A DNA stretch of 64,000 bases from Hanleya hanleyi (lineage: Eukaryota; Mollusca; Polyplacophora; Lepidopleurida; Hanleyidae): assembly GCA_036873755.1 (NCBI GenBank), contig JAVTVY010017448.1, positions 1-64,000 of the forward strand, given 5' to 3'. The translations under genes were made by a program, and so were the position numbers. Position 1 is the first letter of the stretch, and every line of letters begins with the position of its first letter. Shown piece after piece: positions 29,778 to 50,309 of the stretch. The notes below the pieces were generated by a model, which was not told where the DNA came from, did no database searches, and saw only the letters and a program-made list of their open reading frames with translations.

Positions 29778-29783
29778 TATGTG
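29778..29783 (+). repeat. Polinton left target-site duplication
   Basis: TATGTG lies immediately outside the left terminus. The right flank has TGTGTG (49,453-49,458), matching in five of six bases. Six-base duplications are the rule for Polinton integrases. Confidence 0.6.
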
Positions 29784-30710
29784 AGTAGTAGGGAGCCGTG
29801 ATTTCGAGTGGGGTTGGTGTCTGCGCATGCGCGAGAAAGTGGTGTGCGCAGGAGTGTTCTGCGCAGGTATGACGTCACTTCCGGTCTGCGTGAATCGGGC
29901 GTGACCTGTGAACATGATAGGACATGTACTGACCTGTCTGTGGGTTGTCCCACAATTTCGCTGACCTCCGTGTCTTTTCGGTGACGTCCGTGTCTTTTCG
30001 GTGAGATCCGTGTCTTTTCGGTGAGGTCCGTGTCTTTTCGGTGAGGTCCGTGTCTTTTCGGGTATGTATGAGGGTCCGGAACATGATAGGACATGTACTG
30101 ACCTGTCTGTGTTTTTTTTCACAATTTCGCTGACGTCCAGTGGGGTTTTTCCATCGTCACCGAAAAAAACACATACAACTCGCCACATACAGTCGCCGCC
30201 CTCAAGACCTTCATACATATCCGAAAAGACACGGACGTCACCGAAAAGACACGGACGTCACCGAGAAGACACGGACGTCACCGAAAAGACACGGACGTCA
30301 CCGAAAAGACACGAATGTCACCGAAAAGACGTGCAAAAGTGGAATTTTTAGGGCATTGCTGCATTCATTGGCCTGCTTGACCAACCTTACAAGCGTCTAG
30401 TCCGTCATTCATAATCCAGCCGTCGTCCATTAGAGAATATCCGCGTCCATAATCCAAAGACCTATTCCATTTTCCATATAACAGTATTAGCACCAAATTC
30501 AAAAAGACAATCATAGTATACAAAAACATACGCTTGTTTGCTGCAAGAGAGAAGCGGTCAACAGTTTTCAATGATGCCGGCAAGACATCATGATGTTACA
30601 AAAATATCAAATCCGTATCGCTGATCAGTATTCTGCCTCACCAGCCTGCCTGACCAGCCTGAGCCTGCCTTACCAGCCTGACGACAGGAGCTACTTGTCT
30701 GAGCCTCATC
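29784..30710 (+). repeat. Polinton left terminal inverted repeat (with insertion)
   Basis: It matches the complement of 48,655-49,452. From the tip inwards there is a GC-rich block with GCGCATGCGC, an array of five 20-bp units (29,961-30,060; GTGTCTTTTCGGTGACGTCC type), a spacer, and an inverted array of about 5.5 units (30,221-30,330). Then follow CCTGCTT...CCAACCTT and, after family A insertion 30,387-30,633, a CCAGCCTGAGCCTGCC-rich leader up to ACAGGAGCTACTTG. Excluding the insertion, the repeat is about 0.68 kb. The TATA-like box of the right copy is altered here to GTGCAAAAG. Confidence 0.9.
30387..30633 (-). repeat. Family A 3' fragment inserted in the left TIR
   Basis: About 247 bp in minus orientation run from the terminus (complement TTACAAGCGTCTAG) to GATCAGTATTCTG. 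The right TIR lacks it, so it arrived after the Polinton had integrated or diverged. It lies just upstream of the polymerase gene and supplies a spurious in-frame ATG at 30,590. Confidence 0.9.
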
Positions 30711-30730
30711 AACCTGAGCCTCACCGCAGC

Positions 30731-33176
30731 ATGAGACGTGGAGAAGATTTTCCAGGGGATGCAGGAGCGCCTCCAGCTGATGCCTTGCCCGAAGACGAGC
30801 GTGTGAGTGAGATTTATCGACGTCACTGGAACACCATACGCCATTGTTTTCACCGTCACCGTCGTCTATTGGACTTGTACAATTTCCGGTTGCAGGACCT
30901 CACGCATCTTCCTACCTATGCCGAGAGTATTTTTACAGACCAAGTGACAGCGTTCAAAGTGAATATCACATTTGGGTACATTTTACGGCACAAAGAGACG
31001 GACCAGTTACGGTATTATTATCCCAGTAATAATACCTATGTGTTTGACCAGCCCTTGACGGTGACGGATGCTATTTCTCTGGAGCCACTCATCGAGCAAC
31101 TCACTACGTTGGATCCGTTGGAGTGGGCGCGTTTGCAACGTCCTAATACCAAATGGACTGTGGAAATGGTCACCAACGTCACATTTTTCGTCACCATATT
31201 GAGAGATCATCCTATCGGTGCTCCTGTTATTCTTCCGTCTTGGCTGCTCTGTCGAAAAGGACTGTATGCGTTAATAACGGGTAGAAAAGGCCCCTACAAA
31301 GATCGGAAATGTCTGTTTCGGTGTTTGGCGGTTCATTTGGACCAGTGTGATCCCAATAATTGTGAAAGAGTAGCAGATGGCTATTGCGAAGAGTATCTAG
31401 AGGCGCAAGACATAGACCCACGACGGTTCCGGGGAGTCCCCTTCAAGTATTTGGATGTCGTGGAATCGCTGTTCGACGTCAATATCTTTGTATACCGATT
31501 ACGACGCGAGGATGACATATTTGTGGCTGAATTGGTTCATCGCTCAACAGAACGGTATGCTTCTACGATGAAAGTCAATTTCTTCGACCACGGCGGAGTG
31601 AGTCATTTTTCCGTGATCTACGATATGAGCCTGTACGCGCAATCCTACAGTTATGCCCAATGTCATCGGGTGTTCAAGCAGTCTGTTCATTTACATCAGC
31701 ACGAGAAGACTTGTGACAACTCTGTGAAGCGCAAATATCCCGGCGGTGTGTACCATAATACGCCTACCATTTTCGAGGAGCTGGCCGATGAGGGTCTTGT
31801 CATACCGGAAGAGGACCGATTTTTTCCCTACCGGGCGTGTTACGATTTTGAGGCCCTGTTGGAACCCATGGACATGTTCTCAGCGAAAACACAGTGGACG
31901 CAGCGCCATATTCCCCTGAGTGTGAGCATTTCCACCAACGTACCCGGCTATGACGCTGCGCCCGTCTGTTTCATGTCGTCGGGGGACTCCCATGAGTTGA
32001 TTACTCGCATGATGGGTTATTTAGAGGAAGTCAGTGGTGCCAGTACGAAATTGTTGGTGTCCAAGTTCCAGAACGTACTGGACCTACTGGACAACCGGAT
32101 TCCTACACCCGGTGTATCGTTCAGCGACGATGAAGAGTCAGAGTCGGAGACGGAGTCGGAGCCGGATAACATTCAGCCGCAGGATGTACCTTTACCTAAG
32201 CCGTAGGCGGAGAAATTGAAAGCCCGCTTCCTACAATACCTAGGCCAGTTACCTGTGCTCGGCTTCAACTCGGGGCGATACGATCTAAACATGGTGAAGG
32301 AATTTCTCTACCCTTACTTGGTCCAGGCTAATACCATCAAGTCCGTCATCAAAAAGATCAATAATCATATGACCCTCATTACCACGTCACTCCATTTCCT
32401 GGATGTACGGAACTACTTAGCTCCAAATTATAGCTATGATCAGTGGGTGAAGGCGTATGACTGTGCACAAACCAAAGGGAGGTTCCCTTACACGTATATA
32501 TCGACGCTCGACCGCTTGGAGGAAACACAGTTACCACCCCGGGACGCGTTCTTTGACGATCTGAAGCAAGTGGAATGTTCGGAAGAAACGTACCGGGAAC
32601 TACAGCAGGTATGGAACGACCAACATATGCAGACCTTGCGAGATTTCCTGACATGGTATAATAACTTAGATGTGGTTCCGTTCCTCGAAGCGGCCGAAAA
32701 AATGGTTCAACTCTTTCGGGACCAAATGCACGTCGACATATTCAAGCAGTGCTTGAGTTTACCGGGTCTGGCTCTACGCCATCTCTTTCAAGATTGTCCC
32801 ACTTACTTCTCGCTGATACAGCAAAAAGACGAGGACATGTACGATTGTTTAAAGCGGAACATCATCGGTGGACCCAGTCTTATATTTCATCGCTACCACG
32901 AGAAGGACGTCACCACTTTTCCAGGTGGGAAACCCTGTGCCAAAATCATCGGATTCGATGCTAATGCCCTGTGTCTGTGGTCCCTTGCCTAGCCCATGCC
33001 CAGCGGTCATTATACGCGCTGGTTGGCGGAAGGTCAGCAACGCACACCCTACAAACATCTCGCCGACCAGTGGTTGGACTGGGAAGTCTATCGACGGGGA
33101 ATTTCTATACGCCATCAGACCAACGCCACAGAGAAGCGGATAGGAGATCGCTGACTCCCCGTCGATGGGTATGCCC
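30731..33176 (+). pseudogene. POLB: Polinton DNA polymerase B, broken and C-terminally truncated
   Basis: Family-B, protein-primed-type DNA polymerase that would copy the element. I start at the ATG at 30,731 because the earlier ATG lies in inserted DNA. The N-terminal third has an OTU-like signature (DRKCLFRCLA) and a His/Cys block (HLHQHEKTC). An exonuclease-like region begins at YRACYDFEALLE. The second half has LPVLGFNSGRYDLNMVK and reaches polymerase motif A, GFDANALCLW. One frame is interrupted by TAG at 32,204, TAG at 32,990 and TGA at 33,152. After LPVDGYA (about 33,176) homology stops: the palm motifs B and C and thumb, normally several hundred more residues, are absent, and the antisense capsid gene begins at once. 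Not functional. Confidence 0.9.
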
Positions 33177-33184
33177 TTGTGGGT

Positions 33185-34258
33185 AGAACACCGACAGTAT
33201 GATTGTTTTGTCCTGTGGCTGTGAACAGGTTCAGGTAGCTCCGCACATAGTGCTGGTTACCAAAATCCGGTTGTAACGGTCGGGCTGAAATTTGATGGCC
33301 GGCTACGTGCAGTGCCACAAAGTTCATGTTGAAATGTTGAAAGTGGAACGGATTCTCACCCCACTGTCCATTGAAACTGGTGTTGGTGACACACGCCAGG
33401 GTAAGACGTTTAGGGAGATCCCCTAGAAATAAATTTTCTCTACTGGCCATCATCGTACCTACCGGCACGGAGAACACCTTGGTCTGTACGCGTCGGATGG
33501 GGTACAGGGCTGGTTTTTTCGATAAGGCTTCCATGTGACTCACCAACACGCCCTGTTGCAAATCAACGGTATGCACAAACAGGGCTGCTTCTTCTATGAC
33601 GATCTTGTAATTGGGGTTATCTCCGCCTGCCATCAAGGCGAAGGAGGGTGGGGAACGAATCAGCTTGATCTTGATGGATACACCGTTCATAAGGTACCGA
33701 TCTTGCAGGAACAGGTCGGCGTGCAGTCGACCCATCATATCGACAGACTTGCTACCGCCTGTAAACCTGCGTTGGATGAACCCACTATTTGCAACGGTAG
33801 TCATATCGATTTCACCGGGCGAATCCTTGTAGAACAGTAAGGCTTGCAAGTGTGTTTTTTGGCATCTTCTCCGTACGACAATAACGTTTCGATGTAGGCT
33901 CGATACGGGTACGTATTGGTGGACGTACTGATGAGTTTATCGTTCAGACTGATATCCACCTGTTGGAACATCGAGTGCAGCCAGAGATTCACTGGCCTAC
34001 CACCGCTTCGTCCTCGATGTCCGTCCCGTCTCCTTTCATCACTTTGGCTTTCACGTAAAGGTACGTGTGGGCTAAATCCAGGTAGGCCGTATCTTTGTTT
34101 TCAACGGTAAATTCCAGCGGTCCCGTTCCCGTCAGGCTAGCCAGGGGGCGATGTTCTACCCAACGACCTTCGGCGACACTGGTCTGTGTGGGAGGAATAG
34201 TCCACAAATCCAATTCACTGTTGGTAGACGGACACGACTCGGAGTGGATGAATGCCAT
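33185..34258 (-). pseudogene. Major capsid protein (double jelly-roll), frameshifted and truncated
   Basis: This is the hexon-like building block of the particle. Starting at MAFIHSESCPSTNSELDL (34,258), the sequence shows the conserved capsid segments WTIPPTQTS, then STNTYPYRAYIETLLSYGED, DMMGRLHADLFLQDRYLMNG, YPIRRVQTKVFSVP and LFLGDLPKRLTL. Two one-base losses, near 33,995 and in an A-run near 33,862, shift the frame. The C-terminus stops resembling the family after FTATGQNN at about 33,195, roughly 120 residues short of usual. The start codon overlaps the stop of the preceding gene as TAATG, suggesting a shared transcript. Confidence 0.88.
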
Positions 34259-34659
34259 TATGCGAAGATGTCTCTCCTACTCTTCTTCTTCTTCTTCTGG
34301 CGTGTGCCTCGTCGGTGTGTTGGTCGTCGAATGACTCTACCCTGTGACGGGGGTTGTCTTTTAAGAGCTTTGGCGACCAAGACGCTGCCTGCTTCTTTGG
34401 CCCGCCGTTTCAAGGCTTGTCGGGGTGCCGCACCACTCAAGACATCACCGGCCACTTGCAGTCCACTGCGTACCGCTTGTTTGCCCATTGCTTTTACTTC
34501 ACGTGACACCAAGGGTAAACACGTTTTGACGATGCTCCCGAGTATGTTTCCCAACCCGTGACCTCGTTGCATGCGTGCACCGCTAAAGACTGGGAGGCCA
34601 CCACCCGTTTGTTTCTTGTAATAGTCGGCATAGCTGGCCGTATGGCACTGGTAAGGCAC
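34258..34659 (-). CDS. Basic, glycine-rich virion core-like protein
   Basis: This 133-residue open frame encodes a very basic protein. The N-terminus has YADYYKKQTGGGLPVFSGAR, the middle a hydrophobic glycine segment (GHGLGNILGSIVKTCLPLV) followed by VAGDVLSGAAPRQALKRRAKE, and the tail a run of K and R. Proteins of this composition sit between penton and capsid genes in Polintons and adintoviruses and have been compared to adenoviral minor core proteins (family knowledge). A DNA-binding or membrane-active role in the particle is inferred. It is intact, starts 5 bp after the penton stop, and overlaps the capsid start. Confidence 0.75.
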   Translation of the reverse strand: MPYQCHTASYADYYKKQTGGGLPVFSGARMQRGHGLGNILGSIVKTCLPLVSREVKAMGKQAVRSGLQVAGDVLSGAAPRQALKRRAKEAGSVLVAKALKRQPPSQGRVIRRPTHRRGTRQKKKKKSRRDIFA

Positions 34660-34832
34660 GTATACTATATGAAGTGGGGAGAACGTGCTTGTCGGAAATG
34701 AAGTGTCAGCACCACCTTCCCTCGTTCGAATGCCACCGGGCGACCCGTGTCATCTCTTATATCCACCGTGATTGTGTTGATATCGGAGTGTCGTACGGGT
34801 AGGTAGAGTACGTGGTTGAAACTGTGTGTGAC

Positions 34833-36652
34833 TATTTCAAGTTCACAGAACCTCCTTGCATTTCATATAAATATACTAAATCTATTGCCACCAAAATATT
34901 CAATTACTCCAATGCTGTCAAGGAGTTTGACTGGAACTTATACACGTCAGGAGGCTATAGTTGTGATTGTGAATTGTCGAACTTTATCTATACACCATGC
35001 AAACGTATTGTGACTGGTGACCTTGATGTGGTGAGTGATAAGGATCTGAAATTACTCCTGATGAAAGGATCTAAATATAGAGAGCCAAGAAGAATAAATC
35101 TGAAGGCCGACCAGAAGATAGTCCTGTCTGCATTAGAACAGTACGTTATTGATTGGTCTAAGCGAGAAAAGGTTGAACCTACAGTACTCGCTGATTGGCT
35201 GGACCTCACCAAGAGCAAGGTCGTTGAAACAATCCGCCATATTGACAGAAGTACTCTTCCCCAAGCAAAACAAGTACTGAGAAACCTCAATTCGCAAGAA
35301 GTTCTAGCAAATCTCCAGAGTAAATTCGTCATAGTCCCAGCAGACAAAGCTCCGAATAATATAATATTCATATGTAAATATTACTATTACCAGGTGCTGG
35401 TTAAAGAATTGAGTGTAGACATATCTTCATCAAATACGTCTACTTACTCCCAAACTGCATTTACTCTGGAAGATTTATTTAACAATCACAAACAGTTTCT
35501 CAGGGAAAGAGGTATTTGTCTTCCAACCAATCATAACGACATACCAAAACTATACTGGACTCCCAAAATGCATAAATCACCATACAAAGCTAGATTCATA
35601 GCTGGTTCTAGAAGCTGCACCACCAAGCTTCTTTCAACCCTATTGACGAGGGCCCTTCAGGAGGTAAAAGCATTTTGGGAAAGGTATTGCGCCACTATTT
35701 TCAAGAACTCTGGCGTTGAATGTATGTGGATATTGAAAAACTCAAAATGTCTTACGGAAGAACTTGATGCTAAAGGTCACATACCGTACAGACATGTATC
35801 CACATGGGATTTCTCGACTCTCTATACTACAATCCCTCATCAGGACCTTATTGACCGTCTAAGTTCATTAATAGTATCTGTGTTCAAGAAAACTGATCGT
35901 AGATATATTAATGTCGGAAGCCATAAAGCATTCTTTAGCTCGACTAGATACAAGAGATATCATTCATGGGATGTTTCTTTGTTTATAGAGTTGCTTGAAT
36001 TTCTCATTAAAAATATTTATGTGAAATTTGGCAACACAATATATCAGCAGCATATAGGTATTCCAATGGGTACTAATTGTGCACCCCTGTTGGCTGACCT
36101 GTATCTGTTCTCTTATGAATATGACTATATGCAGGCGCTTTCAAAACCGATCCATTCAAAGCCCGTTCTTTCTCATTCACCAAACGCTATATAGACGATC
36201 TTCTCGCTGTGGATAATCGCTATATAAATGACGCAGTGAAGGATATATATCCACCTTCACTGGATTTGAAGGAAACTACAGATAGCCCTACAGGCACATC
36301 TTATTTAGATCTCTTTATCTATAAAAATGAAGCGGGCATTCTCTCTCGTCGACTTTATGACAAAAGAGATGATTACAATTTCGACATCGTAAACTATCCC
36401 TTTCTGGATAGTAATATTCCAGTGGGACCTGCATATGGCGTATGCATATCTCGCTTAGTAGCATTTGCTAGATCCTGTGTTAAATGTGATGATTTTAATC
36501 AACGTCACAAAACATTGTTGCAGAAACTGATAAAACAGGGCTATTCCACCAAGCGCCTCCACTCAAAGTTTCTCAAATTTGGCGATACATATCGCATGCT
36601 GATAGCAAAATACGAACGTAGCGTGCAAGATCTATGGCGCTACGTTTCGTAA
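34833..36652 (+). pseudogene. Family A reverse transcriptase, one frameshift
   Basis: The first frame ends at 36,194 and the second continues to 36,652. Visible RT features are VPADKAPNNIIFICKYYY, PKLYWTPKMHKSPYKARFI, FSTLYTTIPHQDLI (motif A region), GIPMGTNCAPLLADLYLFSYE (motif B) and, after the shift near 36,170, the catalytic TKRYIDDLLAV. The end has LYDKRDDYNFDIVNYPFL. I regard the family as Penelope-like in the broad sense, because of LYTTIPH and G..MG spacing, but it differs from the classical element at 9.6-10.3 kb, and no GIY-YIG domain is visible. The first codons from 34,812 are antisense penton sequence and are not part of it. Confidence 0.8.
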
Positions 36653-38886: not shown

Positions 38887-39501
38887 TTATTTGGGCATGT
38901 ACACCGTCTGAAACTCTCCGGGAAAAATGTGGGTCCGCAATCGAAGTGCCGAGGGTATCCTTTGTTTCAAGTCGATGAGAAGATTACCGTGGGCCCCTTG
39001 GGTGGCATCTTCAAAGGCTTCCCGCACAAAGGCCGTGTTTTTAGGGTACATCTGTCTCGCCAGGTGCATTATTTGTGATGCTTCTCTGGGGTTTTTGAAC
39101 AACACCACATACTGAGCATTCAAACTGATGTTGCGGTGCTCTTTGTTCTTACTGAAGAGATTCTGGACGATGTAGATGATGCTCAACCGACGATGATGGC
39201 TCCCTTTCGTAAAGAGACGCGTCACCCGACTGTCCGTTTCGGTCATTAGATCGTCTACCACCACCAACGTGTCTTCTGGGGTATCCTCTGGGGGTAATCC
39301 TTCCACCAAGGTGAGTCCAGGTATGCGTGCCAGTTCCTCGTACGCAGGCTGCCAAGCTTCATAACACCAGAGGATGTGAGCCACGGGCGGTGAAATGAGG
39401 GCTGACCCGTGTTGGATGAGCCGTTGTACGAAGTGTGTTTTTCCCGACCCGGTCGGTCCATCGATGAGACACGTGAAGGGATGCTGCCACCGAGGATCCA
39501 T
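38887..39501 (-). CDS. ATP: FtsK/A32-like genome-packaging ATPase
   Basis: Intact 204-residue ATPase expected to pump DNA into capsids using ATP. Walker A is GPTGSGKT at residues 15-22, close to the N-terminus as usual in Polinton ATPases. Walker B is TLVVVDDLM near residues 80-88, followed by TKGSHHRRLSIIYIVQNLF, which fits the sensor region with a conserved Gln-Asn. It starts 3 bp after the stop of the membrane-protein gene and is followed by the small hydrophobic protein, so co-transcription in the late block is likely. Confidence 0.93.
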   Translation of the reverse strand: MDPRWQHPFTCLIDGPTGSGKTHFVQRLIQHGSALISPPVAHILWCYEAWQPAYEELARIPGLTLVEGLPPEDTPEDTLVVVDDLMTETDSRVTRLFTKGSHHRRLSIIYIVQNLFSKNKEHRNISLNAQYVVLFKNPREASQIMHLARQMYPKNTAFVREAFEDATQGAHGNLLIDLKQRIPSALRLRTHIFPGEFQTVYMPK

Positions 39502-40126: not shown

Positions 40127-41305
40127 TTATAGCCGTTTCATGTCACGGGCTGAGCCCCAGGAATTAAACGAACTGGGCCAACCTTGCCATTTGACGAAAT
40201 GATAGGGGATGCCACGTCGACGTTCCGTTTTCAAAATCTTTTCCACCGTGTAGTAGTCTTTCCGTGTTTTTACTACCGGTTGTAATTCCGCCTCGTAAAA
40301 CGTGCCTTGCAGTGTTTCTCCTTGTTGATCTTCCAGTTGATAGACGTGTGGGTTTCGAGGGCTATGGCGAACGATGACAAAGTGCTCGTCACTCCAGTTG
40401 GGCAAGTAACTTTTCTCAAATTGCCCTTTGACTTTACTGATCCGTACCACATCTCCGCGTTTGTAACGGGGTGAAGTGAGCGGACTTGGTTCTATCGAGT
40501 ACAGCGTACGGCGCACTTGATGTTCGTTGCGTTCCGTCACATCGAGGGGAGCCCGCTGGATACTGCGATGATAGGCTCGATTGTACCCTTGGACCAGTTG
40601 AGGTAGCACATTGATGTACCGTCGGGTGTTTTTGGCGGTAAAATACTTGTACATCCGACCTTTGAAGGTCCGATTGAATCGTTCCACCACAGAGGCTTTG
40701 GTCTCGTTGTACGTATGGAAGAAAAACACCTTCTGTTTCTTAAGAAAGGCTTGAAAGTGTCGGTTGAGAAATTTTGTGCCTTCATCCGTTTGCAAATAGG
40801 GGGGTTTGCGACCCGTCTTGAAAATCTGCTGGAACGCTCGTACCAGATTCTCTCCTGGTTTGGTCCGGATGGGTAGCACCCACGCGTACTTGGATAAAAT
40901 ATCGATACAGGTCAACATGTACCGATGTCCATCATTGTGGGCAGCAAATCGACTCATATCGACCAAATCGGCCTGCCATTGTGCGTCTACTCCTCCTACG
41001 ATGACTGGGTTACGGCAAAAATGTCGTCGGGCGGCTCGATGTAAGCTATATGTGTCTTGGGTTTTTAACCATTCTCGAACTTCAGTTCGACTGATGCTTT
41101 GGGAATGTGCAGCTCGAGCGAGCTCTCCCACAGCGCTATAAGTGGCTCGACTGGTTGGGTTGTAATACAAATCTGTTAACACCTTGTTCACAGTCTTACT
41201 CCACGTGGACTCCTGCCGGCCGGTCTTGCGGGTGCTCCACTGGCTTCCCTTTCGGGTCCCCCTCTGGGTGCCCCTCTGGGTTGCGCTGTTGTGTGTTCGC
41301 TTCAT
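40127..41305 (-). CDS. INT: Retroviral-type DDE integrase with chromodomain
   Basis: Intact 392-residue integrase that would join element ends to chromosomal DNA. The catalytic core has Asp in WQADLVDM (about residue 113), Asp in QTDEGTKF and Glu in SVVERFNRT, with 33 residues between the last two. A C-terminal SH3-like region (RYKRGDVVRISKVKGQFEK) is followed by a chromodomain (YTVEKILKTERR, then YHFVKWQGWPSSFNSW), which may target chromatin. The start at 41,305 has a TATA element CTATATATATAG at 41,339-41,350. All catalytic residues are present, so this protein could still act in trans on intact ends. Confidence 0.95.
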   Translation of the reverse strand: MKRTHNSATQRGTQRGTRKGSQWSTRKTGRQESTWSKTVNKVLTDLYYNPTSRATYSAVGELARAAHSQSISRTEVREWLKTQDTYSLHRAARRHFCRNPVIVGGVDAQWQADLVDMSRFAAHNDGHRYMLTCIDILSKYAWVLPIRTKPGENLVRAFQQIFKTGRKPPYLQTDEGTKFLNRHFQAFLKKQKVFFFHTYNETKASVVERFNRTFKGRMYKYFTAKNTRRYINVLPQLVQGYNRAYHRSIQRAPLDVTERNEHQVRRTLYSIEPSPLTSPRYKRGDVVRISKVKGQFEKSYLPNWSDEHFVIVRHSPRNPHVYQLEDQQGETLQGTFYEAELQPVVKTRKDYYTVEKILKTERRRGIPYHFVKWQGWPSSFNSWGSARDMKRL

Positions 41306-41383: not shown

Positions 41384-42008
41384 GGCCGCCCATAGATCAG
41401 GTCCAGGGTAAAATGTCCTCCGTCCAGACAGATGAGTTGAGCAAAAAAGGCGCCGCGGAAAATGTAGACCTGGTCACACAGGTGAATGCTATCACCGTCC
41501 AGTGTTCCCTTTAACACACGTTTCAAGGTGGTCCATCCCTCCGGGGACAGAGAGACGTCGGATTATGGTGCCCACCCAGTGCGGTTATGGGTGAGGTCGA
41601 CTCGTTTGGGGTACAACAATAGGGTACAGCCAGGTGTAAGAGTCCGGGTAGCCACAGAGTTCGCGTCGGGGTGCAGTAAGTCGTGGACGTCGGATAATAG
41701 CTTTCAGTGCCTGCCATAATGCAGGACGGAGTGTGATATGGGGACCACCACGCTGTTCTAACCGGGGAAAAAGAATCATCTCCACCACTTCGTAGGTAGA
41801 CACCGACTCCCACGTGCATGAAATCGACTTCGGGCTCTTTTCCCTGTAACAACCTTGTCAGTAGAGTCCACCCTGCTAGGGTTAAAAATAGCTTCACCTC
41901 TCGGGGTTGTTCTTCGATGAGCTGCAGGTGATGGTCATTGACGATCAGGGTGACGTTGGCGGTCAGTTGGAACAACGCAGGCTCACCATCTGTTCTGCAC
42001 GCTCCCAT
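41384..42008 (-). pseudogene. PC4-like protein, frameshifted
   Basis: The start is chosen at ATG 42,008 (CCACCATGG context), with TATATATA at 42,044-42,051. The first part, ALFQLTANVTLIVNDHHLQL, then REVKLFLTLAGWTLLTRLLQ, resembles the strand-strand-helix pattern of the PC4/p15 single-strand DNA-binding fold, whose end is usually LT..W..L. The frame shifts near 41,800 and again near 41,700. A second such unit with CTLLLYPKRVDLTHNRTGWAP, a stop, then DVSLSPEGWTTLKRVLKG reaches the end near 41,384. PC4-type proteins bind DNA or modulate transcription. The assignment rests on pattern only, and the gene is decayed. Confidence 0.45.
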
Positions 42009-44030: not shown

Positions 44031-44783
44031 TTACACCGATCGGAGCAGGTTTTCTCGCCTCTTAGTACACACGGGACATTTCAGCCTGACGAGTGTACAC
44101 GCTATGGGCTTGTAAGTGGGCGTAGGGACTGGTCTTCCTTCATGTTTGTGGATACAGCGGATACATAACGCTTGGTGTCCACACGGAAATATAGCGGATT
44201 TGGCGTAGCGACTACTGCATTGGACACAGGGCAAATGCTTTGCTGCTCCCCATGTTGTGTCTCGCCCCAGTCTTCTTATTTCGGTGCAGTAGTACTCAAG
44301 ATATCGCTGCTGTAAAACAGCCGTCTGTTCTTTTTCTTGTTCTTTTTCTTGTTCTTGGTGTTGTTCTTGGTGTTGTTCTTGGTCTTGGTCTTGGTCTTGG
44401 TGTTGTTTGAACAGATCGTGTATGACTCGTTCAAGCCGTTCGTATTGGGAGGTACTATCAGGCCGTACGTCGTGGGTACTATTGCCCACTCCATCGATGA
44501 ATTGACCGGTTGCTTCGGGAAGATAGGACCGTTGTTGCGAAACTGCGGTGAAATCTCCATCCGCCGCCTCTTCTTCTTCTTCTTCTTCTTCTTCAATATC
44601 GACGAATTGACCCGTGGCATGGTCAAGATACTGCCGCTTTTGTTGTGAAACTGGGGTCAAAGTCTCGCTGCCATCTACCGGCTGGTCTTCTTTTTCTTCT
44701 TGTTCGTCATCTTTGCATAGCTCTTCTAATATGTTGTCAAGCCACGACTCGTTAATAATATTGTGCACTCCATCAATATCCAT
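44031..44783 (-). CDS. RING-finger protein A (probable E3 ubiquitin ligase)
   Basis: I start at ATG 44,783 (MDIDGVHNIINESW), because the upstream ATG at 44,801 lies in an inserted repeat. The 250-residue protein has an acidic N-terminal half with Glu runs and a duplicated motif of the type QRSYLPEATGQFID / KRQYLDHATGQFVD. A Gln/Glu/Asp low-complexity coil follows, then a C-terminal RING: CVQC, CGHQALCIRC, and KCPVC near the end. C-terminal RINGs recruit E2 enzymes, and many animal DNA viruses use them against host defence or apoptosis factors. It is divergent from RING gene B (46,281) and shares its promoter. A family B insertion separates the TATA box from the start, so expression may be impaired. 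Confidence 0.8.
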   Translation of the reverse strand: MDIDGVHNIINESWLDNILEELCKDDEQEEKEDQPVDGSETLTPVSQQKRQYLDHATGQFVDIEEEEEEEEEAADGDFTAVSQQRSYLPEATGQFIDGVGNSTHDVRPDSTSQYERLERVIHDLFKQHQDQDQDQEQHQEQHQEQEKEQEKEQTAVLQQRYLEYYCTEIRRLGRDTTWGAAKHLPCVQCSSRYAKSAIFPCGHQALCIRCIHKHEGRPVPTPTYKPIACTLVRLKCPVCTKRRENLLRSV

Positions 44784-44790
44784 GTATTGA

Positions 44791-45023
44791 TTACAACACA
44801 TATAAGGGAGGTGGGAAGAGGTGCCGACATACTGACTGCGTCACATGACTGCACAGAATAGTCTTCTGGTTAACCTATTCTATAGCACATACCAAGAATC
44901 TAACGATTCGTGATATGTGTTGTATCTCAGGTACGCTTTTATTGTACCTGTTCATGTGGCAACTTGGATGATATGACCACACGGCCCCTAGCACTGGCAT
45001 AAGCGGTATTAGATACAAATCTA
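44791..45023 (-). repeat. Family B fragment in the RING-A leader
   Basis: The fragment starts TTACAACACATATAAGGG and ends near AGATACAAATCTA. It sits between the RING-A start codon and the promoter arm. The equivalent position upstream of RING-B has no such sequence. Confidence 0.85.
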
Positions 45024-45027
45024 ATCT

Positions 45028-46270
45028 AGTTCAAAATGAATGGATAGCAGACGATACACAGTGCGCTTTTTATAGTCTAACCGTACAGCGCCCGTATGAG
45101 GGAGGGAGGGAATTTGGCTTAATGTCACACTCAAGTTTGTTTCACTCATATGGTGACAGTCAGTTTGGTTGGTAGAGGAAGCCGGAGTACCCGGAGAGAA
45201 CCACCGCCCTTCGGCAAGTAACTGACAAACTTTCACACATGGACTAGCAGGGCTCGAACCCGTGCCGGTTCAGCGGTGTGAGGCTAGCGGTCACCGGCGA
45301 AGCGCCTTAGACCACTCGGCCACCGAGGGCCCGTATGAGGGCGCGGACGTCACCAAAGTGTCTCCGCTCAGGCCCACTGTGATGTTGTGTTTCTCTCCCA
45401 TCTTCAAATCGGTCTCATTTTGCAATAAATGCGAGTTCACGTGTAAAATTATTTTAAACTTGAACTTTGGGAGCTTATAGTGTATCGCTGAAAAATTCAG
45501 AAGGTTGACGGCAGGCTAAAACTATTTTTTTTATCATTTTGTCGGTTTTAGACCCGTATGGTTATGGGTGTGGTTGTGTGGAAAACCCGGTAAATTTGAA
45601 ATAAACCGGCTTAACTCTGTAAAAACACTTTAGGTGTCTTCCTTACATCCTTATAATGTCACCCTGAAAATTTCAGCAGGTTTATCGATGGAAAAGTGTG
45701 AATTTTTGTCCTGCCACTCTTGCTACGGTAACACAGCCATTGACACGCATAGCTGTACATACACTCGGCTCCATACTGTATAGTGCTGTGTTACCGTAGC
45801 AAGGATGGCAGGACAAAAATTCACACTTTTCCATCGATAAACCTGCTGAAATTTTCAGGGTGACATTATAAGGATGTAAGGAAGACACCTAAAGTGTTTT
45901 TACAGAGGTAAGCCGATTTATTTCAAATTTACCAGGTTTTCCACACAACCACACCCATAACCATACGGGTCTAAAACCGACAAAATGATAAAAAAAATAA
46001 TTTTAGCCGGCCGTCAGCCTTCTGAATTTTTCAGCGATACACTATAAGCTCCCAAAGTTCAAGTTTAAAATAGTTTTACACGTCAACTCGCATTTATTGC
46101 AAAATGAGACCAGTTTGAAGATGGAAAAGAAACACAAAATCACAGTGGGTCTGAGCGGAGACACTTTTCTGAGCGGAGACAAGATTTCGTTGACGTCCGC
46201 GCCCTCATACGGGCGCTGTACAGTTAGACTATAAACAGCGCGCTGTGTATCGTCTCCTATCCACTCATTT
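45028..46270. promoter_or_regulatory. Large palindromic divergent promoter of the RING pair
   Basis: Two inverted arms are centred on a 49-bp spacer (45,737-45,785). The left arm is 45,028-45,736 including a SINE; the right arm is 45,786-46,270. The innermost ~230 bp are nearly perfect. Each arm ends with a CTATAAA box (45,068-45,075 minus; 46,229-46,236 plus) and a GTATCGTCT(G/C)CTATCCA block just ahead of the RING genes. The arms also carry GGCGCGGACGTCA-type and GAGCGGAGACA blocks. This reads as a bidirectional promoter formed by inverted duplication. Confidence 0.75.
45103..45328 (-). mobile_element. tRNA-derived SINE with 13-bp target duplication
   Basis: Same SINE family as at 12,263. 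On the minus strand the head has GGCCGAGTGGTCTAAGGCG and the B box GGGTTCGAGCCC, the body GGGTACTCCGGCTTCCTCTA, and the tail TTAAGCCAAATTCCCTCCC. It is flanked by GCCCGTATGAGGG at 45,090-45,102 and 45,329-45,341. It interrupts the left arm of the promoter palindrome; the right arm has the uninterrupted site. Confidence 0.9.
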
Positions 46271-46280
46271 CAACTGCATC

Positions 46281-46991
46281 ATGGCTAATGGTATTAGACG
46301 GTCACTTTTCAACGTAATGAACACGGGAGTGTCGACCGAAACTTTCAGGGTGACAATTCGAGACGGAGAACAACAACAAGATCCTAGATGGATTCGCTCG
46401 AGCGGAGAAGACGAACATGTTACAATCATTACGAGCTTGCAGCGTGTTGCTGAAGCTCAGATTGCTGAAGCTTTGAGAACGAGAGGCGCACAACAAGATA
46501 GAGAAATAAGGGACGCTGTGCAGGAAGAGGATGATGATGATGAAACAGACGATGAAGATGTACACGGAGAGTTGGAGTGGTTGAACAGTAGTAGACCCCC
46601 AGCAACTACAGCTTCGACTCAGACGGCTACCACAACGACGGCTACCACAACGACGGCTAACACAGCGACCGCAACAGGAATGACAACACCACCCCCAGAA
46701 ATCAGCCGCATGAGCCAACAAATTCAAGATTTAGAAGACGAAAAGACTACACTACGCCTACAACTGGCTAGGGAGCAGAAAAGATCAACCTGTACCGTGT
46801 GTCAAGACGATGAGACGATGTACACCTTTTTTCCTTGTGGCCACCTGTGCCTATGTGGTGTATGCATGCTAAGCTTAACATGCATGGCGGGCTCGTGCCA
46901 ATGCGCAGAGACAGAGGAGCTTCATTTGAAGTTACGATGCCCTGTGTGTCGGGGATGGGTATCAAACATCAAAACAATATTCCGGCCGTAA
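46281..46991 (+). CDS. RING-finger protein B (probable E3 ubiquitin ligase)
   Basis: Start at ATG 46,281 (MANGIRRSLFNVMNTG), 45 bp after a CTATAAAC box. 236 residues: an N-terminal region of unknown fold, an acidic run (EEDDDDETDDEDV), a Thr-rich linker, a short coiled-coil (QQIQDLEDEKTTLRLQL), then a C-terminal RING with CTVC, CGHLCLCGVC and RCPVC. As in RING-A, a long loop separates the middle and last Cys pairs and the last pair is preceded by basic/hydrophobic residues (LKLRCPVC versus RLKCPVC), so the two look like diverged paralogues. The arrangement (coil plus C-terminal RING) recalls IAP-type ligases without BIR repeats. Confidence 0.82.
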   Translation: MANGIRRSLFNVMNTGVSTETFRVTIRDGEQQQDPRWIRSSGEDEHVTIITSLQRVAEAQIAEALRTRGAQQDREIRDAVQEEDDDDETDDEDVHGELEWLNSSRPPATTASTQTATTTTATTTTANTATATGMTTPPPEISRMSQQIQDLEDEKTTLRLQLAREQKRSTCTVCQDDETMYTFFPCGHLCLCGVCMLSLTCMAGSCQCAETEELHLKLRCPVCRGWVSNIKTIFRP

Positions 46992-47333: not shown

Positions 47334-48566
47334 TCAATATTTATGCAACAAGACTTGTTTGAACTCGTCATTGTCTTTCTGTCCCTGGTGCACGTATATG
47401 AAGGTGGCAATCTGTTCACGTGGAATTCTGGGTGGACAGGCAGCTTGCAATGCCTCGGCAATTTGCACCTCGTTAACGCCGTGTAGTTCCTCAGTCATCA
47501 TTGCGTCTGATGGTATACTATTGTCGATACACGTATGCGTGTTGAAGAGACCGTTCTTGTTCTGACAGCCTGCACATTGCTCGATACGCAAGTGTCGAAT
47601 GCAGAGTCTGAGATGATCCAGGAATGTGTGGATGTACCTCATATAAATATACTGAGTCACCTGATCAGACAGAACTTCATGAATTTCACCTGTCAGACTC
47701 TCCAGCTTCCGCCACGCAGGTATTTGCAGGGTGACGCCCTCAGGTAAAGGAAAACGCGTATCTCCCCTCAACTTCCATTTACGAATATGCACCAGCAGCA
47801 TGTTGTTGAACATAGAACAGGTGAGGAAGATGTCGTCGCTCACATAAAATTTCGCTTCGTCGCTCCCCTGGTGGTCAATGACCGCATCGACGGCGTAGTA
47901 AATGGCCTGTACTCTTATCCAGGTCTCCAACGTCAAGGCGATATGCTTAGGTGGTTTGTCGTCCCAGGCCGGTGCGTTAAAGTGCACTTGCTCTTCTTTG
48001 ACGCTCAGAGTTAAAGAGGGAGAGAGCTCCCAAGTGTTCGTCTGGGCCGCCTGGTAGGCCTGCTGGATAATGTCATTGATCTGCTGCACAGACATAGGAA
48101 GTAGCACCTCTTCCTGCGCTTGCTCAGGCACTTGCTGGGACACTGGCTGAAGCACTTGCTGAGGTATTTTTAAAGGTGTTAGTCGGGGACATTTGGCAGG
48201 TGGACCGGACACTTCGTGGGTACGTTTGGTACCTGTGCTTCCTTCGGCGATGTCCATGTCCATGACTAAGATTTTATCCTCTGAATCTTCGGCTTGAAGT
48301 TGAAGTAGGCATGCTATTCCTTCATTTCCCGTCTTCTTCAACGCCTCCACGAAGGCTTGAAATGCTAAGGGGCCACGGCGCAGCAGATCGTCGATGAGGG
48401 CTCTGTTTTGTCGCGAAGTGGTATTCTCCGCCATGATATCTTCCACACCGTGTTTAAGGATTATGTTTTCCAACATAAGCAGATCACATATATCGGCCAC
48501 ATGCTGCATCTCATCAACGAGGCGAATACGGTGCTGTAGAAGCTTAGCTCGGTGAGATGATTCCAT
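47334..48566 (-). CDS. CARD-PC4 fusion protein
   Basis: Intact 410-residue frame. I start at ATG 48,566 (MESSHRAKLL), because upstream codons to 48,641 are terminal-repeat leader. Residues about 1-90 look like a CARD death-fold domain of the caspase-9/Apaf type: HRIRLVDEM, ILKHGVEDIMAENTTSRQNR, LIDDLLRRGPLAFQAFVEAL, ending TGNEGIACLLQ. A linker with a nuclear-localisation-like KRTHE...PPAKCPRL and Gln-rich helices follows. Residues about 184-300 resemble one or two PC4-like units (HIALTLETWIRVQ; MLLVHIRKWKL, VTLQIPAWRKLESL). A Cys/His motif (CAGCQN...NTHTC) closes the domain. CARDs bind host CARDs in apoptosome or innate signalling, so a decoy or adaptor role is inferred. The right TIR supplies a TATAAAA box. 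Confidence 0.75.
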   Translation of the reverse strand: MESSHRAKLLQHRIRLVDEMQHVADICDLLMLENIILKHGVEDIMAENTTSRQNRALIDDLLRRGPLAFQAFVEALKKTGNEGIACLLQLQAEDSEDKILVMDMDIAEGSTGTKRTHEVSGPPAKCPRLTPLKIPQQVLQPVSQQVPEQAQEEVLLPMSVQQINDIIQQAYQAAQTNTWELSPSLTLSVKEEQVHFNAPAWDDKPPKHIALTLETWIRVQAIYYAVDAVIDHQGSDEAKFYVSDDIFLTCSMFNNMLLVHIRKWKLRGDTRFPLPEGVTLQIPAWRKLESLTGEIHEVLSDQVTQYIYMRYIHTFLDHLRLCIRHLRIEQCAGCQNKNGLFNTHTCIDNSIPSDAMMTEELHGVNEVQIAEALQAACPPRIPREQIATFIYVHQGQKDNDEFKQVLLHKY

Positions 48567-48654: not shown

Positions 48655-49452
48655 AGGCTCAGGCAAGTAGCTCCTGTCGTCAGAGTGGTTCAGGCTGGTC
48701 AGGTAGGCTCAGGCTGGTCAGGCAGGCTAATGAGGCAGGTTGGTGAAGCAGGCCAATGAATGCAGCAATGCCCTAAATAATTCCACTTTTATACTTTTCG
48801 GTGACATTCGTGTCTTTTCGTTAACCTCCGTGTCTTTTCGGTGACGTCCGTGTCTTTTCGGTGACGTCCGTGTCTTTTCGGTGACGTCCCTGTCTTTTCG
48901 GGTATGTATGAGGGTCTTGAGGAAGGCGACTGTATGTGGCGAGTTGTATGTGTTTTTTTTCGGTGACGATGGAAAAATCCCACTGGACGTCAGCGAAATT
49001 GTGGAAAAAACCCACAGACAGGTCAGTACATGTCCTATCATGTTCCCAGGTCACGAAACGTCACAGAAAAAGAACACATACAACTCGCCACATACAGTCG
49101 CCTTCCTCAAGACCCTCATACACATACACACCCGAAAAGACACGGACGTCACCGAAAAGACACGGGCGTCACCGAAAAGATACGGGCGTCACCGAAAAGA
49201 CACGGACCTCACCGAAAAGACACGGACCTCACCGAAAAGACACGGACCTCACCGAAAAGACACGGAGGTCAGCGAAATTGTGGAAAAACCTCACAGACAG
49301 GTCAGTACATGTCCTATCATGTTCACAGGTTACGCCCGATTCACGCAGACCGGAAGTGACGTCATACCTGCGCAGAACACTCCTGCGCACATCACTTTCT
49401 CGCGCATGCGCACTGACACCAACCCCACTCGAAATCACGGCTCCCTACTACT
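48655..49452 (-). repeat. Polinton right terminal inverted repeat
   Basis: This is the complement of the left TIR without the family A insertion. The inner array of 20-bp units (about 48,800-48,900) has five copies and the outer array (49,132-49,271) seven, against about five on each side in the left TIR. Copies of ACAGGTCAGTACATGTCCTA occur at about 49,018 and 49,299. The inner part ends in the CAGGCTCAGGCTGGTC-rich leader of the CARD gene. Confidence 0.9.
48787..48793 (-). promoter_or_regulatory. TATA box in the right TIR
   Basis: TATAAAA (minus strand) is about 220 bp upstream of the CARD gene start. The equivalent left-TIR site, upstream of the polymerase, is mutated to GTGCAAAAG. Confidence 0.5.
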
Positions 49453-49936
49453 TGTGTGCCAATATAGTATACAGTGCTATGGATGTGTATTTTTTCCCCA
49501 GTGGCTGTGGACCAGTGGCGCACAATTTGTGTATTTATTGCAGTTGTTTTCATTGAGTAGTCTCCTGAAAGATTGGATTTCTGTGAGGGGATTTCTGTTT
49601 TGTTTCCACAACTATAGTTGCCGTGTACCAAAACGCACAACAGCACAAACCCGTTTACTGAACTTGATTGTGATGAATCTGAGTAAATGCAGATCATAAA
49701 AAAGAACAAAATAAAAACGCTCCCCATCATGTCGCTGATTTAAAATCTTGGCCTTGGTTTTCGTTTTCAGAAACAGCTTTCGGTAGATCAAGATCACGCG
49801 TCTGGTCCGTCGAACTTTGCAGCGAGGGGCAGTGTTTATAAATCTCATCTGATAAATTTTAGCTTGTTTCATCAGATTAATATTTTATTAATAATTCGAT
49901 CAATAACAGGACACATTTCTCTGTTACTAATATCAG
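49453..49936. other. Flank outside the Polinton, no gene
   Basis: Begins with the imperfect duplication TGTGTG. The longest frames (for example minus 49,612-49,872) have no recognisable domain. Confidence 0.3.
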
Positions 49937-50309
49937 CCGGTGTTTTGTGTTAAATGCCGTCATTTTCATCTGACGACGATACAGCTCACCAATCCCCACT
50001 GTACGAGTTGTCACAGCGAAACAGCTCACCAATTACCAATATACGAGTTGTCAGAGCATTTCCATCATAGCTCTCTAGATTTGTATCTAATACCGCTTAT
50101 GCCGGTGCTAGGGGCCGTGTGGTCATATCATCCAAGTTGCCACATAAACAGGTACAATAAAGCGTACCTGAGATACAACACGTATCACGAATCGTTAGAT
50201 TCTTGGTATGTGCTTTAGAAATGGTTAACCGGAAGACTATACTGTGAGGTCATGTGACTCTGTCAGTATGTCGGCACCTCTTCCCACTTCCCTTATATGT
50301 GTTGTAATT
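49937..50309 (+). repeat. Family B single copy
   Basis: A near-complete unit from TTTTGTGTTAAATGCCG to CTTATATGTGTTGTAAT. It lacks the GGACGTTTCGTCC segment present between tandem units at 23.9 kb. Confidence 0.85.

Follow-up and report, generated by a model that had tools for sequence, protein, structure and literature searches.

What is a domain of the cell death machinery doing in a virus-like element of a mollusc, joined in a single reading frame to a part that resembles a DNA-binding protein? The question is raised by a gene in contig JAVTVY010017448.1 of the polyplacophoran Hanleya hanleyi (assembly GCA_036873755.1), whose first 64,000 nucleotides were analyzed here and are called the window. 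The gene lies on the minus strand at 47334..48566 (exact coordinates), and its intact frame of 410 codons plus a stop encodes an N-terminal CARD, a PC4-like part, and a C-terminal Cys/His motif. A preliminary description made from the letters of the window had proposed that the two parts are fused in one frame. The fusion was borne out by the unbroken 410 codons and by shuffling: none of 2,000 shuffled versions of the interval contained an open frame of at least 400 codons. Judged from its sequence, the element that carries the gene is a Polinton/adintovirus-like provirus.

The CARD spans residues 1 to 92 (48291..48566, minus strand). It matched PF00619 over residues 8 to 90 with an E value of 1.6e-13 and a score of 50.9 bits (cut-off 23.9), and a CARD match was found in all 18 of the copies scanned out of the 102 copies of the gene described below. 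The best match among PDB sequences was caspase-9 (1e-7), as the preliminary description had anticipated in speaking of a caspase-9-like pattern; the window sequence aligned across the entire caspase-9 CARD, and CED-3 (1.7e-6) and RAIDD (0.0017) followed. A profile built from nine diverged rows ranked caspase-9 (7.8e-13), CED-3 (3.6e-11), RAIDD (3.5e-9), BIRC2 (1e-8), and Apaf-1 (4e-7) above NLRC4, NLRP1, and ASC. The protein collections used for comparison seem to contain few animal proteins. Residues R13 and R55 of the window CARD aligned with R13 and R56 of caspase-9, which we take to be functionally important there, and both were kept in all 64 of the copies that passed the open-frame filter given below. 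In a model of the full-length protein (mean predicted local distance difference test score, pLDDT, of 40), residues 3 to 94 were all-helical, with five helices, compared to the six of a death fold, called at pLDDT 36 to 53. It is by profile and by similarity to PDB sequences, not by a confident model, that the domain is identified. By these matches, the window CARD is closest to the CARDs of apoptosome-type signalling. Sequence that codes for CARDs is very plentiful in this genome: of 4025 first-look candidates for a CARD profile, 150 were scored and 150 exceeded the cut-off, a set that mixes CARDs of elements with a share of host genes.

The gene is not confined to the window. A search of the same genome scored 102 copies, including that of the window; the others were 85 to 94% identical to it and nearly all full length. 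This number is a lower bound, the first look having returned 6935 candidates. An internal stop was present in 31 of the 102 copies and absent from 71. When a start motif and at least 396 open codons were required, 64 copies passed and 38 failed; in five of the 64 the frame terminates prematurely close to the C-terminus, and the other 59 are free of stops. The genome also contains a second CARD-PC4 family, deeply diverged from the first, with 147 matching stretches; many of these are partial, and 42 are complete and free of stops. Its protein, 266 residues from the start, is 46% identical to the window protein in the CARD and 24% identical in the PC4 part. One member (L103; G000 C1268) encodes a shorter CARD-PC4 protein that has neither the linker nor the Cys/His tail. 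This member is followed (L111) by capsid-like frames 58 to 69% identical to those of the window and by an adenain-like protease frame, which scored 19.1 bits with Peptidase_C5 (cut-off 21.3). The fusion is therefore found in two or more diverged families of elements within one genome and is not a local accident. A read-through accident, in which the CARD and PC4 parts would be expressed separately through splicing, would have to contend with this recurrence of the same one-frame order in families whose CARDs are approximately 45% identical, and we hold it to be highly improbable.

How well is the second half of the protein supported as PC4-like? PF02229 was detected at an E value of 0.1 or lower in 17 of the same 18 copies, and residues 227 to 301 of the window protein scanned alone scored 22.3 bits. 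Among the diverged relatives, L103 had the highest score of those scanned (31.2 bits) and, with L106 (26.2 bits), exceeded the cut-off of 25; L104 and L108 scored 25.0, L105 fell below it at 24.4, and a PF02229 scan of L110 gave no match. A profile built from an alignment of natural copies (A2) matched human PC4 with an E value of 0.0011. Unit 1, residues 176 to 233 (47868..48041, minus strand), and unit 2, residues 234 to 292 (47691..47867, minus strand), correspond to the β4-α fold that appeared twice in two low-confidence models, one of residues 166 to 345 and one of the full-length protein, the latter with a second helix only 3 residues long. In L103, residues 108 to 169 (unit 1) matched human PC4 chains (E values of 0.02 to 0.036), and residues 179 to 231 (unit 2) gave the PF02229 match. 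Two PC4-like units per chain are thus supported, as predictions from profiles and models.

Between the CARD and the first unit lies a linker, residues 93 to 160 (48087..48290, minus strand), with a KR...KRPR pattern found in 58 of the 64 copies; we assume that this stretch resembles a bipartite nuclear signal. Past the second unit, residues H325, C331, C334, H344, and C346 (47529..47594, minus strand) were each conserved in 63 to 64 of the 64 open copies. This agrees with the Cys/His motif proposed in the preliminary description, and the motif is a possible metal site. Elsewhere in the window element, two overlapping frames at 41787-42008 and 41588-41857 (together 41523-42008, minus strand) look PC4-like by eye, with profile comparisons giving E values of 0.064 and 0.024. 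As a CARD-less PC4 gene, the stretch had pairwise scores at or near chance; it is perhaps a broken gene of this kind.

Have these genes been under selection, or are they debris? We analyzed the 64 open copies, sorted by CARD and linker residues into types A (6), B (27), C (19), and H (12). Between A and B (162 pairs), the ratio of nonsynonymous to synonymous divergence (dN/dS) was 0.35 for the CARD and 0.32 for the PC4 part, or 0.34 and 0.33 when the five early-ending copies were excluded. Among pairs within B, the ratios were 0.69 and 0.53, and between B and C they were 0.71 and 0.50. These ratios are consistent with a period of selection as the element spread, followed by drift. The 31 copies with an internal stop, the 38 that fail the open-frame filter (which also requires the start motif), and the broken polymerase and capsid genes of the window element would suit a different account, in which the genes are relics of dead proviruses, open merely through recent insertion, or in which a few have been taken over by the host. 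We give this account little probability: of the 102 copies, 59 satisfy the filter and lack a stop, at 85 to 94% identity, and an A-B ratio of about one-third suggests selection while the family spread. The differences of the H-type CARDs fall in blocks at residues 37 to 66, where the pooled dN/dS was 1.57 to 2.06. We read this as clustering and not as evidence of positive selection.

The CARD was also the more variable part of the protein, with a mean entropy of 0.35 compared to 0.15 for the PC4 part, and its history was its own. In a tree of residues 1 to 68, the 12 H copies formed a single clade with support of 100/100. For residues 69 to 410, four changes were needed to place the H copies on the best tree, and well-supported branches force two or more of these. 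Forcing the H copies together in this second region cost 107 log units and was rejected by the approximately unbiased (AU) test (p = 2.2e-7, 64 copies); H monophyly was likewise rejected when the five early-ending copies were dropped (AU p = 3.3e-4, 59 copies). The H group was defined by CARD residue 40 and the 68/69 boundary was picked after viewing the profile of synonymous divergence (dS), so these results concern clades rather than mapped breakpoints. The CARDs of types A and B were 77 to 81% identical to those of the diverged relatives L104 and L108, whose whole proteins were 60 to 72% identical to that of the window; to the H CARDs they were 76 to 80% identical, while the remaining parts of the proteins differed by a few percent. 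Because the H CARDs form one clade in residues 1 to 68 only, and because of these identities, we conclude that the CARD has apparently passed from one backbone to another, provided that the assembly is not chimeric. Assembly chimeras could mimic such an exchange in a repeat-rich assembly of 52,793 contigs.

These observations bear on whether the CARD has a partner outside the element at all. It could instead be a self-assembly module that polymerizes the element's single-stranded DNA-binding replication protein into filaments, with no host partner. We think this unlikely, since a module that meets only itself would be expected to vary with the rest of the protein, yet the CARD is its most variable part and has a different history. 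A CARD-only frame was also found near the polymerase of another element, which speaks against self-assembly as well. This frame (L107; G000 C11066), 131 codons from stop to stop, lies approximately 3.7 kb from a stretch of viral-type type-B DNA polymerase (L112; Pfam, 77 bits), which gave no match when compared with the polymerase pieces of the window. Approximately 0.8 kb from the CARD-only frame is a frame with a YxDTDS-like motif, presumably a polymerase motif; the element differs from that of the window.

The position of the gene suggests how it may be expressed. Its ATG lies 170 bp interior to the inner edge of the right terminal inverted repeat (48737..49452). A TATA-like box (TATAAAAG; 48786..48794, minus strand), approximately 220 bp upstream of the ATG, turned up in 23 of the 28 copies that were scored, as did a 20-bp array unit upstream of the gene; for these counts 30 loci were taken with flanks, 28 of which had a readable start. 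The 20-bp unit did not occur in any of 500 shuffles of the window's upstream stretch (0/500). The array and the box upstream of the ATG are promoter-like signals, consistent with a gene driven from the terminal repeat, as the preliminary description had proposed. Both terminal repeats contain 20-bp arrays with GACGTCA cores, at 48794-48901 and 49132-49277 on the right and at 29956-30061 and 30221-30330 on the left. The cores are, we presume, CRE/ATF-like, and the arrays are a possible stress-responsive enhancer.

A stress-responsive promoter, which the GACGTCA cores could provide, would suit a protein that acts as a sensor and adaptor: on foreign or damaged single-stranded DNA, its clustered CARDs would activate caspases or NF-kB-type signalling and thereby kill or arm the cell against competing viruses. 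Cellular sensors follow the same logic of coupling DNA binding to a CARD, and the L103 CARD is also similar to those of NLRP1 and NOD1. We nevertheless rate this relay as decidedly unlikely, since no result favors activation and the nearest viral CARD to have been tested restrains apoptosis.

We favor a decoy, to which we assign nearly, if not quite, an even chance: a single-stranded DNA-binding accessory protein whose CARD would block host death signalling. The CARD-PC4 gene would be an accessory gene of the provirus. The two PC4-like units would bind single-stranded DNA, as PC4 does, and the bound DNA would probably be that of the element itself during replication in the nucleus, a site suggested by the linker motif. 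The N-terminal CARD would pair with the CARD of an initiator caspase of the host, or with that of the caspase's activator, and prevent assembly, which would keep the cell alive during replication of the element. The direction of this effect is proposed by analogy with the CARD protein of ranaviruses (vCARD): in frog A6 cells, a frog virus 3 (FV3) mutant with the vCARD gene (ORF 64R) deleted caused significantly more apoptosis (PMC4974522). In a more elaborate form of the decoy, the PC4 part would, in a large family of animal DNA proviruses, tether the CARD to viral DNA during replication, and host CARDs of death signalling would be intercepted there. The elements would trade CARDs as interchangeable specificities, pitted in an arms race against the CARD repertoire of the host. 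We regard this form as doubtful.

Several results weigh against the decoy. The nuclear-signal-like motif that suggested the nuclear site is broken in the window copy, which reads K-C-P-R. The window copy scored only 19.3 bits with PF02229, below the cut-off of 25, and over the second unit alone (residues 245 to 289); the plural in the PC4-like units of the preliminary description is backed by the low-confidence models and by L103. The CARD dN/dS was higher in other comparisons than between A and B, at 0.71 for B-H as for B-C, 0.67 for A-H, and 1.04 for C-H. In a single-pair A-B test (L002 and L014), only residues 36 to 68 were significant (p = 0.013), with p = 0.075 for the PC4 part. A test for positive selection on the CARD did not support it, the excess of dN in the block of residues 36 to 68 between H and B being not significant (single-pair p = 0.80). 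In the window element, neither the polymerase gene nor the capsid gene is intact. The L103 CARD matched RAIDD (1.5e-6), BIRC2 (2.7e-5), NLRP1 (6.5e-5), and NOD1 (2.2e-4) ahead of caspase-9 (2.6e-4), and MDA5 (5.7e-7) fell among the Apaf-1 rows of the nine-row profile. The partner of the CARD therefore need not be an apoptosome protein. The precedence of other partners for the second-family CARD and the weakness of the selection tests make our confidence in the decoy slightly lower than it would otherwise be.

The element itself is 19,669 bp long and is bounded by terminal inverted repeats, the left of which lies at 29784..30387. A probable target-site duplication flanks it (TATGTG at 29778..29783 and TGTGTG at 49453-49458, alike at 5 of 6 positions). 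The terminal repeats and a retroviral-type integrase with a chromodomain (40127..41305, minus strand; PF00665 1.3e-9 and PF00385 2.7e-6, above cut-off) bear out its earlier placement among Polinton-type elements. A candidate packaging-type ATPase (38887..39501, minus strand) matched Pox_A32 (0.0007) and Adeno_IVa2 (0.0027), both below cut-off. Pieces of a putative major capsid protein with a broken frame (33118..34276, minus strand) had no Pfam match and are named from their likeness; it is to these that the L111 frames are similar. Two pieces at 30590..32989 (plus strand), which we take to represent the N-terminus of a type-B DNA polymerase (PolB), had no Pfam match, and the remainder of the gene was not found. 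Reverse-transcriptase frames, presumably Penelope-type, lie at 34803-36649 between capsid-like pieces (RVT_1 19.7 bits, below cut-off).

Near the CARD gene, a RING-finger-like protein (44031..44801, minus strand) scored 24.8 bits with PF13920, below the cut-off of 27, and a RING-finger protein (46281..46991, plus strand) scored 29.7 bits. This pair is a possible further tie to host ubiquitin or death signalling. The two genes are separated by a palindrome at 45350-46172, with 388-nt arms that are 95% complementary, likely a nested small transposon. The stretch 44790-45023 is repeated in inverted orientation at 50076-50308, beyond the element.

Is the protein like anything known? It shares with the ranavirus vCARD the presence of a CARD in a virus or virus-like element. 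The vCARD is, as we understand it, a short protein consisting of a CARD only; it differs in lacking a PC4 part and in belonging to another virus family. Equine herpesvirus 2 E10 is presumably another virus-encoded CARD protein, related to BCL10 and an activator, without a DNA-binding part. In the cellular proteins caspase-9, CED-3, and Apaf-1, whose CARDs were the top PDB sequence matches over residues 1 to 94, the CARD is joined to protease or NB-ARC domains and not to PC4. Human PC4 is a single unit that dimerizes; from it, MoSub1, and the phage T5 PC4 homologue, the window protein differs by its two units per chain, its CARD, and its Cys/His tail. PUR-alpha and Whirly are two-unit relatives, from which it differs by the CARD and the tail. 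The PC4 part had a weak structural match to MOSUB of a Branchiostoma lancelet adintovirus (A0A5H3CIS2; E values of 0.033 and 0.036, probabilities of 0.47 and 0.94), a protein of 203 amino acids compared to the 410 of the window protein. The comparison was by structure match and name. The name suggests the PC4 homologue MoSub1, and the protein, a weak fold match, suggests an adintovirus forerunner for the PC4 side.

We found no report of a CARD-PC4 fusion in literature on Polintons and adintoviruses that did not extend to the accessory-gene list of the adintovirus founding paper. In the text covered by a term look-up, CARD, apoptosis, PC4, and caspase were absent from PMC11071296, and CARD and PC4 were absent from PMC11071308. 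Virus-encoded CARDs are already known, and so is a PC4-like protein of an adintovirus; it is the fusion of both for which no report was found.

To our knowledge, no function has been established for many of the accessory genes that Polintons and adintoviruses carry. A CARD-PC4 gene in at least 100 copies, with a CARD that has apparently been exchanged, offers a direct connection from these elements to host cell death that can be put to the test. Apparent swapping of CARDs is what would be expected of a part aimed at host defenses, and the diverging CARDs of the elements form a natural set for testing of partners. Should the CARD prove to be a decoy, this would also be evidence that elements of this kind behave as viruses in opposing animal immunity.
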